Of a stretch of DNA of 34,523 bases, positions 6,299-10,076 are shown in pieces. Origin of the DNA: a virus; IMG/VR virus record IMGVR_UViG_3300019763_000207, positions 1-34,523 of that record; one strand, written 5' to 3'. The notes below the pieces were generated by a model. The model did not search any database and had not been told where the DNA came from. It saw nothing but the letters and a program-made list of their open reading frames with translations. Position 1 is the first letter of the stretch; each line of letters opens with the position of its first letter. Both the position numbers and the translations under genes were made by a program.

Positions 6299-6327
6299 AT
6301 GATTGCACTCGTATGAGTGCATGTCAA
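6299..6327 (-). promoter_or_regulatory. Early lytic promoter with an operator in its spacer
   Basis: On the - strand there is a perfect -35 (TTGACA, 6327-6322), a 17-bp spacer, and a -10-like hexamer AATCAT (6304-6299). The predicted start is near 6292, leaving about 30 nt of leader before the first early gene. The spacer (6305-6321) is almost exactly the inverted repeat GCACTC-GTAT-GAGTGC, so bound repressor would block polymerase. The -10 matches consensus at 4 of 6 positions. Confidence 0.65.
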
Positions 6328-6349
6328 TGGTTTTGTATTCGTATGAGTG
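6305..6349. promoter_or_regulatory. Putative repressor operators (inverted repeat plus second copy)
   Basis: GCACTC-GTAT-GAGTGC at 6305-6320 is a 6-bp-arm inverted repeat. The 11-mer TCGTATGAGTG within it (6309-6319) recurs at 6339-6349, about three helical turns (30 bp) away, overlapping the repressor start codon at 6343. Two spaced copies in the divergent control region fit cooperative binding and autoregulation by the adjacent XRE repressor. No other copies were noticed. Confidence 0.6.
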
Positions 6350-6966
6350 ATTTTGGTGAAAGATTAAAGATTGAACGTATCCGTTTGGGTTATAGCCAAG
6401 AGGATATGGGGGCCATTGGTGGTGTTGCGAGGAATGCACAATCTAACTATGAAAGCGGCAAGCGCTTGCCTGATGCCAAATACTTAATATCTATTGCTGA
6501 TGTAGGTGTTGATCTTCGGTTTGTTTTGCAAGGTATCCATACGAGTGCGCTATTAAGTAATTACCTCACCGTCGACGAAGCGAAACTAATCGAAGCCTAT
6601 CGCAAGACTGAACCCGCTAGCCGTACCACGGTATTGCAGGTATGTGATGCCGTATCAGCAAAGTACGAAGTGGAATATGTAACAGGTACCAAAAAGAATT
6701 TTTCGAGTGAGGATGATCATCAACTATGCCAACGTTTACGCATAGAACGTGAGCGCTTAGGGTTAACACCAGAGCAATTAGTAAGCGATGAGCGATTACA
6801 AATGGAACTAGATGATTACCTCGATGCTGAAGAAGATCGTCTAAACCCCTTGAGTGAATGGCAAGGTATAACATTTGCCGCACTAGCGAGTTTGGGTATG
6901 GATATACGTTATATATTAATAGGTGAGCGTTCTTTAATTATGCCTAGTGATATGGATATCGATTAG
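6343..6966 (+). CDS. XRE-family phage repressor with duplicated domain, no protease domain
   Basis: A 207-aa protein from the ATG at 6343. The start at 6313 is less likely because it lies inside the operator and the usual family beginning (FGERLKIERIRLG) follows 6343. Residues 3-57 form an XRE helix-turn-helix (GYSQEDMGAIGGVARNAQSN), followed by the DLRFVLQG segment typical of such phage regulators. Residues about 123-195 repeat the layout in degenerate form: LCQRLRIERERLGLTPEQL, then FAALASLGMDIRYILIGERS. There is no S24/LexA-like protease domain, so RecA-triggered self-cleavage is not expected. No Shine-Dalgarno is visible, so the mRNA may be leaderless or nearly so. It faces the early operon and should act as the C-type lysogeny repressor. 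Confidence 0.82.
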   Translation: MSDFGERLKIERIRLGYSQEDMGAIGGVARNAQSNYESGKRLPDAKYLISIADVGVDLRFVLQGIHTSALLSNYLTVDEAKLIEAYRKTEPASRTTVLQVCDAVSAKYEVEYVTGTKKNFSSEDDHQLCQRLRIERERLGLTPEQLVSDERLQMELDDYLDAEEDRLNPLSEWQGITFAALASLGMDIRYILIGERSLIMPSDMDID

Positions 6967-7025: not shown

Positions 7026-8081
7026 GTGAAGACTGAGACTAGAAAAAAAACAATTCATTATAAAAATGCGGTTTTTACAAATTCTGAAATAAGCCTTCAG
7101 GATTTATTAGAGGTTTTAGTTGATAAAGACGAGGCTGTATTCAATGTAGGCGGACGAGTAGAAAATATAGACGCAGATAATACGAGCAAAAGATTTATTA
7201 ATCATCATAAAAACTTTAGTGGTATGTTTTTTGGGCAATTGATATTTCTAGAGCATGGGAAAAGCCAAGAATTAATAGAAGTAGATGCAGAAGCGCAATT
7301 TTGTAATATAAAAAGCTTACTCCCTTCAAGTATTAAGTATGCTAATGAGACCTCGGAAGAGGCTGAGGCAAAACGACGTGAGTTCATTAATTCTTTTCTA
7401 TATTTCGGCGTTTTTGGTAACCACCTTGTTGTTTTGCAGTCTGCGGCGTTACGTACACGTGAACTGGAAACACATTTAAATTGGTTGCTTGGCACAAAGA
7501 CCAGTAAAATCCCTAATAAGTCTGCTCTAGTTTTACAAGGTAAACCAACTCTAGAGACTATTAAAAAAGTTGAAAAAACGCCTGTTAAAAAAATAAAAAT
7601 AGGTTCGCCTATCGATACTGTAGACTCAGTTGATGAAAAGATAGAGAACAAATCATTAATATTGAAAGATAGTTACCAAACCAAAACTGTAAAATATAAA
7701 CCTACAGGTATGGGTATGGATGTAGTAAAAGCAATACTAGGTGATAATGTATTCAATAAGTTAAGTTTTGATGACTCGCTAGATGAGGCTAATCTAAAGG
7801 TTAATCTAGAAATAACATACAGTCGAAAGACATCAAGCCAAGGCCAAAAAGTTTTAGATGATATAGCTACCTCGATGCGTCACATTGATGACGCTGATGT
7901 TAAAATAGACTTAGTGGGTGGCGGCACCATACATGGAAAAGATTTGAAACTATCTGGTGATATCAGCGTTAAAATGATTAAAGGTAAAGTCGATGAAAAT
8001 GATCTTTACCACCAGATGCATGCTTGGCTAGTTTCAAAAATAGATGATAAAGAAATTGAGCTAGAAGATGATCCCGAATAA
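7026..8081 (+). CDS. Unknown 351-aa accessory protein, candidate defence/exclusion component
   Basis: A 351-aa protein starting with GTG behind TAAGGA (about 7 nt). No family is recognised. It divides into an N-terminal domain (1-155) that ends in a hydrophobic and basic segment (FGVFGNHLVVLQS, then RTRELETHLNWLL), a Lys/Thr-rich low-complexity linker (about 160-215), and a C-terminal domain (about 220-351) with strand-like stretches, a VGGGT motif and an acidic end. No signal peptide or membrane segment is seen. It is clearly more AT-rich than the phage structural genes. It follows the repressor by 59 nt on the same strand, so it is likely transcribed in the lysogen, perhaps from a weak promoter in the AT-rich gap. 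Its last 14 nt overlap the membrane-protein gene, pointing to one functional unit. Confidence 0.7.
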   Translation: MKTETRKKTIHYKNAVFTNSEISLQDLLEVLVDKDEAVFNVGGRVENIDADNTSKRFINHHKNFSGMFFGQLIFLEHGKSQELIEVDAEAQFCNIKSLLPSSIKYANETSEEAEAKRREFINSFLYFGVFGNHLVVLQSAALRTRELETHLNWLLGTKTSKIPNKSALVLQGKPTLETIKKVEKTPVKKIKIGSPIDTVDSVDEKIENKSLILKDSYQTKTVKYKPTGMGMDVVKAILGDNVFNKLSFDDSLDEANLKVNLEITYSRKTSSQGQKVLDDIATSMRHIDDADVKIDLVGGGTIHGKDLKLSGDISVKMIKGKVDENDLYHQMHAWLVSKIDDKEIELEDDPE

Positions 8082-8619
8082 TTCTAAAGATGCACAACTA
8101 GGTTGGACAGGTATAGGGTTTTTAGGAATCCTAGCGAGCTGCTTAGTTGGTGGAATAATTGGTAGATCTATTGGTTCTAGTTTACAAACAGTTAATAGTT
8201 TGCCATGGATTTTGGTCACGATACAATTAGCTGTTATACCTTTTACACTAATAGTTAGATCTAAAGTAGGCGAAGTAAGAGAGATAGAGGGGCTATCTGC
8301 TACTGAAGAGAGAAGGCTGGAGAGAATAGTTCGTGAAAAAATACATCAATTCGATACAGCTATAATATCATTTCTTATCATGGCTATTATATCTGTCACA
8401 GCTTTATTAATAGGAAGTAGTGACGAATCTTTAATTAGAATAGCGTTTTCAGTCGTTTTTTCTTTTGCATTTATATGTATTTTTTCATTTTGGTTAATAC
8501 TTAAAGAATCATCAGAAATTGATGTTTTTAAATCCGATATGTTGAAACGAAGGGCAAGAAAAAAGAAGGCAAAGGCTGCTATTAATAGTTTAAAAAAAAA
8601 GAAGATTGAATTAGCTTAG
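8068..8619 (+). CDS. Four-TM membrane protein partnered with the 351-aa protein
   Basis: A 183-aa protein with four hydrophobic segments (about 12-33, 46-64, 97-116, 122-146). A charged cytoplasm-like loop with REIEGLSATEERRLER lies between the second and third, and a strongly basic tail ends the protein (about 160-181). Its start lies 14 nt inside the preceding gene, implying coupled translation. The Lys/Arg tail is expected to be cytoplasmic and could touch nucleic acid or membrane lipid. Two-gene units of a soluble protein and a small multi-TM protein are common in phage exclusion and abortive systems, so that role is the leading hypothesis. It has no similarity I can name. Confidence 0.7.
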   Translation: MIPNNSKDAQLGWTGIGFLGILASCLVGGIIGRSIGSSLQTVNSLPWILVTIQLAVIPFTLIVRSKVGEVREIEGLSATEERRLERIVREKIHQFDTAIISFLIMAIISVTALLIGSSDESLIRIAFSVVFSFAFICIFSFWLILKESSEIDVFKSDMLKRRARKKKAKAAINSLKKKKIELA

Positions 8620-8623
8620 ATAT

Positions 8624-9061
8624 TTAGTTCTCACACCAATCTCTTTTATCGCCATAACGGGAATAAAAACGCTGGCTTTCAATCATCTTGATGAATGGCT
8701 TTTTATCGATGTACACATCGGCAATCACGCGGAAGTACATACCCCTGCGGATGTTCTTTAGCTCCACTACTTTAGCAGATCTTAGCTTACTGACCAGAAA
8801 CTGCTTAGCTTCCCTGGCTAATTTTTTCTCATAGCTACATTTCCCACGCATCTCAGGTGTATCTAGCTCGTTGATACGAATGGTTATGCTTTTACCTACT
8901 ATGGCTGGCCACTGGTCTATGTCAACTTTGAAAGAGTCACCATCAATAACAGTACCAACATTGGAAACGGTAATATTGCCATAGTCTTGCACTGCATAGA
9001 CTGGCGATAAAAATAATATAGTGAATAGGGAAAGTACTGTTTTTTTTCTGCTATGTTTCAT
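8624..9061 (-). CDS. Exported SNase-type (thermonuclease family) nuclease
   Basis: A 145-aa protein with a signal peptide (basic start, hydrophobic core, cut expected near VYA, residue 23) and an SNase fold. The active-site pattern of staphylococcal nuclease is intact: DGDSF with Asp42, Arg62 and Asp67 and Glu70 in IRINELDTPE (the same 5- and 3-residue spacing as R35/D40/E43), and Arg111 in the YFRV segment. Cys75 and Cys143 could form a disulfide. It should hydrolyse DNA or RNA in the periplasm or outside the cell. Its start overlaps the two-TM gene by 11 nt, and its stop is only 4 nt from the stop of the convergent gene, with no terminator between. Possible roles are destroying incoming phage DNA or nucleotide scavenging after lysis. 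Confidence 0.85.
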   Translation of the reverse strand: MKHSRKKTVLSLFTILFLSPVYAVQDYGNITVSNVGTVIDGDSFKVDIDQWPAIVGKSITIRINELDTPEMRGKCSYEKKLAREAKQFLVSKLRSAKVVELKNIRRGMYFRVIADVYIDKKPFIKMIESQRFYSRYGDKRDWCEN

Positions 9062-10076
9062 TTTCTTCTTTAATAATTAATTCGGCAATTATTTGATTTA
9101 TGCTTTTTTTATTAGGCTGATCAAGCAAGCTTTCTTCTAAACTTATACTGTGATCAGGAAAGCAAAAACTTCTTAAATTTAAGTCTTGTTGAATATAAGA
9201 TTTGGCAAAATTCATTATATCTGAAGGCATTGTGCTAAAATCAATATCCGTCCATGGGCTTTCTTCAGTTAAATATATTTTCCATTTTTTTGGCATGGCT
9301 ATATTTTTTGTAGAAATAATATTCAATCGAGAAGCGCAATAAATCAAAGTTCCTATAAATTGAACCAGCAATGTTCTATATCTTTCATCATCTTTATTGT
9401 ATAGCTCAACTAGTTTGTAGTTTATTCCGACCAGCCTAGCTGTGTTTGCATTGATGTATTCATAGTATAAGTTAGAGTCAAATATATAATCTAACTCGTC
9501 TTCAATTTCTACTGTGTGGGTTTTTTCTTCTATAGTCCTCTTTTTAAATATAAATGGCTTTATTTCAATAATCGAGACCCCATCTCCTAATGATGTTTCT
9601 TCATGGACGCAGTTTGGGTCTATATAGTTCGATACTATTTCTACATTATGAGGGGTGTTATTAGGAAAGAGCTTTTTGTAAAACAAAGGTTTGTTTTGTA
9701 CTTTAATGTTTTTAAAGTCATTTTCTATCTCAGTTATAACTTTATAAAACTCGGCCCTATGATCTATAAAGTTTTTAAATTTATTCTGGTCTAAGGCCAA
9801 CTTTATTTGACTTTTTGTTTGTTCGCTTCTATGAATTATCGCTATGAAACCTGCTATAGCTAAACCGGATGATGCTATCTTGAACGGTAGTTCTAAATAA
9901 TATGAAAAGTTTTTTATGCAATCTAGGGATGAGCATATTACATATAGATCGTTACTAATTATTATTGTCAATAAAGAAAATATTGTAGCAAAAATGGTTA
10001 CGATAATTGTTAATTTAAAAGATTTTAATTCGGTAATTGATTCATTCAGATGCTCATCGTTATATTTTCTTTTCAC
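9051..10076 (-). CDS. Two-TM protein with large cytoplasmic domain, putative abortive-infection/exclusion partner
   Basis: A 341-aa protein starting with GTG behind GGAGG. Two N-terminal membrane segments (about 22-41 and 65-82, with Cys48 and Cys53 in the short outer loop) are followed by a long, probably cytoplasmic, helical and charged domain. The layout of two TM segments then HRSEQTKSQIKLALDQNKF recalls membrane effectors of Abi-type and retron-associated proteins, but I cannot assign a Pfam family. The gene is very AT-rich, which marks recent acquisition. It starts 35 nt after late gene D with no terminator visible, so it may be read with the late operon, and it overlaps the nuclease gene downstream. 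Confidence 0.7.
   Translation of the reverse strand: MKRKYNDEHLNESITELKSFKLTIIVTIFATIFSLLTIIISNDLYVICSSLDCIKNFSYYLELPFKIASSGLAIAGFIAIIHRSEQTKSQIKLALDQNKFKNFIDHRAEFYKVITEIENDFKNIKVQNKPLFYKKLFPNNTPHNVEIVSNYIDPNCVHEETSLGDGVSIIEIKPFIFKKRTIEEKTHTVEIEDELDYIFDSNLYYEYINANTARLVGINYKLVELYNKDDERYRTLLVQFIGTLIYCASRLNIISTKNIAMPKKWKIYLTEESPWTDIDFSTMPSDIMNFAKSYIQQDLNLRSFCFPDHSISLEESLLDQPNKKSINQIIAELIIKEENET

Follow-up and report, generated by a model that had tools for sequence, protein, structure and literature searches.

What is the function of two overlapping genes that follow the repressor gene of a temperate phage, the first encoding a soluble protein and the second a protein with four TM segments? We addressed this question in the IMG/VR virus record IMGVR_UViG_3300019763_000207, analysed over its whole length of 34,523 nucleotides (hereafter, the window). 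The neighbouring genes encode a P2-type major head protein, a portal, a terminase, tail protein D, a tape measure, a CII-like activator and a primase, so this 34.5-kb record can be assigned to a P2-like phage. Almost no close DNA relatives of this virus were found among phage records. The initial annotation of this DNA had described two ORFs sharing a 14-nt overlap on the strand of the repressor, and this arrangement was recovered at the same positions (Table 1). The two genes are called A and B below. The GTG start of A agrees with an N-terminus that is common to its family (K-x-[IV]-H-Y-K), and the 14-bp overlap suggests that A and B are translationally coupled.

Table 1. Features of the repressor-A-B region, with positions given in the window.
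Feature	Position	Strand	Remarks
Operator-like dyad CACTCGTATGAGTG	6306-6319	.	just 5' of the repressor, visible directly in the sequence
Cro/CI-type HTH repressor	6343-6966 (likely ATG start 6343; longest ORF 6313-6966)	+	HTH, phage repressor PHROGs
A: RexA-like protein, proposed DNA-binding sensor/trigger, phrog_3482 family	7026-8081	+	351 aa, GTG start
A/B overlap, ATGATCCCGAATAA	8068-8081	+	14 bp
B: RexB-like four-TM membrane protein, proposed effector	8068-8619	+	183 aa, ATG start

We then investigated how the two genes could be expressed. The gene preceding them matches the domains HTH_31 (1.2e-8) and HTH_3 (4e-8), as well as phage repressor PHROGs. A partial second copy of the operator-like site is present at 6336-6349, and the number of matches to this site, when three mismatches were allowed, was not above chance. 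The end of the repressor ORF and A are separated by 59 bp on the same strand. No terminator-like site was found between the repressor and position 7026, and the two promoter-like matches detected in this gap are no more than expected by chance in the region. Transcription of A and B from the repressor promoter is therefore the simplest reading, and the repressor transcript probably runs on into both genes. The pair is thus placed for production in the lysogen, as had been anticipated. The repressor itself seems to consist of two tandem copies of a single HTH domain: aligned with each other, its halves score 57 (500 shuffles: mean 24.8, sd 4.2, maximum 46). Upstream of the same system in a Pseudomonas relative (L137), the repressor is in a single-copy form of 129 aa.

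From sequence comparisons, A and B belong to phage families without a functional name. A gives a full-length match to phrog_3482 (E 1.3e-112). The matches of B, to phrog_16807 (1e-10) and to phrog_4510, are weak; none of these three families is functionally named. No model from Pfam, NCBIfam or PADLOC matches either protein, and no match was obtained in the PDB by sequence profile. In particular, the Pfam models of RexA and RexB (PF15969/PF15968) match the lambda proteins but neither A nor B. The profile of the A family was compared with lambda RexA and with gp30 of the Mycobacterium phage Sbash, and both comparisons, made with shallow alignments, were not significant. As no link was found at the sequence level, the relation of A to RexA presented below rests on predicted structure.

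A was modelled with AlphaFold2 from 30 sequences (pLDDT 77.9, pTM 0.73) as a soluble protein, disordered at about residues 203-222. The Lys-rich linker that had been proposed between two domains (about residues 180-191) is partly modelled as a beta-strand (residues 187-195), so this stretch is the border of a domain more than a free linker. When the model was compared with the PDB using Foldseek, lambda RexA (8TWQ) was the sole entry matched significantly, through both of its chains (E 7.4e-6 and 6.7e-5, prob 1.00). With VIA-align, A and 8TWQ were superposed with a Z of 11.8 over 160 residues (4.2 A) spanning residues 8-347. The runners-up, Chl4, Iml3, CENP-N and RdgC, reached a Z between 5.3 and 7.3 (7.3 for the best of them). 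These proteins are distant structural relatives of A, as they are of RexA, with a lower Z and another biological setting; RdgC, Iml3 and Chl4 were reported as structural relatives for RexA itself (PMC11077077). Among viral models, the significant matches of A were unnamed phage proteins, followed by RdgC as the first named one. The whole-chain TM-scores between A and 8TWQ are low (0.29-0.37) and the rmsd is high, which is expected if two hinged domains differ in their relative position. The 8TWQ crystal has been argued to represent a closed form, and a large domain rotation has been predicted (PMC11077077). Given the clear margin over all other folds, the predicted structure of A almost certainly corresponds to the RexA fold.

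The model of B is that of a confident four-helix protein (pLDDT 91). Four segments of its sequence are hydrophobic, the loop between TM2 and TM3 is charged, and the C-terminal helix or tail is basic, with 13 K/R versus 3 D/E in residues 152-183. The four TM segments and the basic tail seen at the outset were thus both found again. According to the positive-inside rule, this basic tail places both termini of B in the cytoplasm (N-in/C-in). The best conserved residues are E80, R82, R83 and L84, in the cytoplasmic TM2-TM3 loop, and F154 and R161, in the tail. A structure search of the PDB with B returned generic helix bundles only. Among the BFVD viral models, the fourth match is a 165-aa protein of Sbash (prob 0.84, TM 0.45-0.49, E 0.52). 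This match must be gp31, the sole 165-aa gene in the Sbash record. Lambda RexB was absent among the viral matches listed for B. Sbash gp31 is an experimentally tested RexB-like effector, and the substitutions R70A and D73A in its central TM2-TM3 loop region abolish defence (PMC6426596). Both gp31 and B have a conserved central cytoplasmic loop. However, the structural E-value is weak and the profile of B did not match gp31 significantly. Taken together, position, topology and this weak structural match are suggestive of a RexB-like protein, and B is likely to be the membrane effector of the pair.

How widespread is this pair? Using tblastn, relatives of A with 37-46% identity were identified in Shigella phage SfIV, Escherichia phage Perceval and Acinetobacter phages, and none of B was found in phages. 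Viral contigs scanned with A as a single sequence gave no relatives; with the alignment as query instead, 158 viral contigs matched (80 were kept), together with 14 GTDB genomes. The relatives in GTDB genomes belong to Oceanospirillum, Marinobacter, Pseudomonas, Serratia, Morganella, Pantoea, Psychrobacter, Erwinia, Acinetobacter and others. In total, more than 90 homologues of A were collected, almost all full-length. The Perceval version is present in near-identical form in 42 out of 5,426 complete E. coli genomes. Among the matches listed, nearly all of these E. coli copies are labelled "hypothetical protein (x2)". In phage records, one submitter annotated A as "DefenseFinder protein".

The association between A and B is constant. 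An ORF of 150-200 aa lies immediately 3' of A in 88 of the 93 loci; three of the remaining five stop at a contig edge, and in the two others B is part of an ORF that starts further 5'. B therefore follows A in every non-truncated locus. With more than 90 homologues of A, almost all full-length, this order is far beyond chance. From 399 Pseudomonas genomes, close relatives of A were detected in seven (two further genomes carry divergent A-like proteins, which are not part of this count), and the B profile was detected in the identical seven and in none of the Pseudomonas genomes without A (Fisher p 3e-15). A separate occurrence of the two genes in most genomes, which the initial annotation had named as an outcome that would refute its proposal, was not observed: the genes co-occur perfectly, and the proposed unit of a sensor with a membrane partner holds as a conserved two-gene module. 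The constant order and the matching sets of genomes indicate that A and B travel as a unit. Divergent A-like genes (L140 and L141) are each followed 3' by their own gene with three to five TM segments. In SfIV (L002, 2405-3827), A is intact, while B has only 108 aa and adjoins an IS1 transposase gene, being a shortened form. Pseudomonas prophages also contain another RexA-like subfamily (L140, L150-L157). Its proteins, of about 353 aa, share 23% identity with A (profile match E 8e-19), and they have their own four-TM partner of 193-195 aa, which carries a conserved MPITANF motif.

We also looked at the genes located upstream of the pair. The order repressor-A-B is found here and in the E. coli phage Perceval, where the pair lies directly behind the CI repressor. 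One short ORF separates the repressor from A-B in the Acinetobacter phages phi1_092021 and Ab1656-2. From related loci, 31 upstream ORFs were scanned, and HTH and S24 repressor domains were the commonest matches (S24 peptidase domain, 16 of 31; HTH_3, 15 of 31). The S24 peptidase domain is that of CI/LexA-type repressors.

Three features of Rex systems are therefore found in this locus: a predicted RexA fold, a four-TM partner directly 3', and a location within the immunity region, where the pair follows the repressor in the same orientation. Such a position is typical of Rex systems, not universal. The repressor-A-B order of the window, on one strand, is that of lambda (cI-rexA-rexB), the predicted structure of A has the RexA fold (8TWQ), and a four-TM protein is encoded directly downstream. 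The lambda proteins are shorter (279 aa for RexA vs. 351 for A; 144 aa for RexB vs. 183 for B), and RexB has no counterpart of the basic C-terminal helix of B. In addition, no sequence similarity with the lambda proteins was detected with Pfam models or with profiles from shallow alignments, and the phage carrying A-B is P2-like, not lambdoid. The RexABpp system (PP_5643/PP_5644) of the P. putida prophage P1 was described in January 2026 by Rosendahl and colleagues (PMC12894663). It acts in defence, and neither of its two genes is dispensable for this. RexApp is a DNA-binding protein, and its over-production leads RexBpp to halt growth and to damage the membrane (PMC12894663). Its link to RexA was drawn with HHpred (PMC12894663). 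By its published description, RexABpp resembles A-B in combining a RexA-fold soluble protein with a four-TM protein, whose termini are on one side of the membrane, behind a CI-like repressor; it differs by two extra genes between the repressor and rexA. The residue pattern of RexBpp (W25, F35, L55, T103, S145, G153, Y181) is complete in none of the related loci examined, and the partners of the L140, L150-L157 subfamily keep three of these seven residues at one offset, which is too few for a claim. Sbash gp30 and gp31 (372 and 165 aa) are likewise overlapping genes for a sensor and a four-TM protein; they show no significant sequence match with A and B, and this pair does not adjoin the repressor (PMC11077077).

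From the RexA-like fold of A and the order repressor-A-B, which is that of cI-rexA-rexB, we conclude that A-B is most likely a phage-exclusion system of the Rex type, acting by abortive infection, which this P2-like temperate phage carries in its immunity region. The membership in the Rex group is claimed here from architecture and fold, and the function by analogy. The candidate new defence or exclusion system of the initial annotation is thus kept as a probable exclusion or defence system, but its kind is a known one, and A-B is a widespread, mostly unannotated branch of it. A, a RexA-fold protein that would probably be dimeric and bind DNA non-specifically, would be made in the lysogen from the repressor transcript. 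Upon infection by a second phage, A would sense an infection intermediate (DNA or protein-DNA) and activate B, the putative four-TM inner-membrane protein. B would then oligomerise and damage the membrane, so that growth would stop and the incoming phage would not be produced. The Rex systems of lambda, Sbash, CarolAnn and P. putida are the basis from which we infer that A binds DNA, responds to a trigger and activates B, and that the membrane is affected.

The pair might primarily serve a purpose other than exclusion, since RexA also modulates the lysis-lysogeny switch (PMC11077077). A could thus bind operator DNA or the repressor and bias the prophage towards lysis, B restraining A, with exclusion as a by-product or absent. 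Lambda RexA has such an activity, which RexB antagonises (PMC11077077), and A is in the immunity region, adjoining the repressor. We consider this role in the switch unlikely: deletion of rexAB in P. putida removed phage resistance and left the activity of the repressor promoter unchanged (PMC12894663). Moreover, the repressors that precede the A-B family differ from one phage type to another, which fits an accessory module that can move between phages better than it fits a dedicated component of the switch.

The logic of the pair could also be reversed, A being a toxic or antiviral effector that B holds at the membrane until infection. Butters gp30/gp31, with the same gene architecture, works in this way (PMC12894663), and the very basic cytoplasmic tail and the conserved cytoplasmic loop of B could hold A. 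This organisation is less likely still, as the membrane protein is the effector in lambda, Sbash, CarolAnn and P. putida (PMC12894663). Finally, a defence system of a Kiwa-like or entirely new kind, with no relation to Rex, would be compatible with a four-TM protein, a soluble partner and the absence of a sequence family of known function, but is highly improbable in view of the strong match of the predicted structure of A to the RexA fold and of the cI-rexA-rexB order. The parallel with Kiwa (KwaA/KwaB) that had been drawn was dropped, neither A nor B having a match in Pfam or, at E up to 1, in PADLOC-DB, which includes Kiwa.

The Rex-type reading gives a probable function to a large phage family of "unknown function", abundant in many gammaproteobacterial prophages and now tied to the Rex fold, and this is the value of the finding. 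Rex is among the oldest exclusion systems known, and its trigger is still unsettled. The dozens of natural A-B variants, some of them from hosts that are easily handled in the laboratory, offer material for the study of this trigger, of the contact between A and B, and of the membrane activity. By January 2026, five Rex systems had been recorded (PMC12894663). More tentatively, and with somewhat less than even confidence, phrog_3482 and its membrane partner might form a separate Rex branch extending across gammaproteobacteria and much commoner than these five systems. This branch would be common to P2-like, lambdoid and Acinetobacter phages and might have its own trigger and effector logic, e.g. 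the basic tail of B tethering A.

Two other genes lie next to the pair, on the opposite strand. The first (8624-9061, -), convergent with B, encodes a small protein that resembles staphylococcal nuclease and whose N-terminus is signal-peptide-like. The second (9051-10076, -) encodes an orphan protein of 341 aa with N-terminal hydrophobic segments. No family was found for it in four libraries; it shows weak matches, with about 30% identity over the first third, to proteins of Vibrio cyclitrophicus records of about 14 kb labelled PE. Located between the repressor and tail gene D, these two genes together form a cargo spot. It is missing from the Pseudomonas relative L136, in which B is directly followed by a D-like gene.
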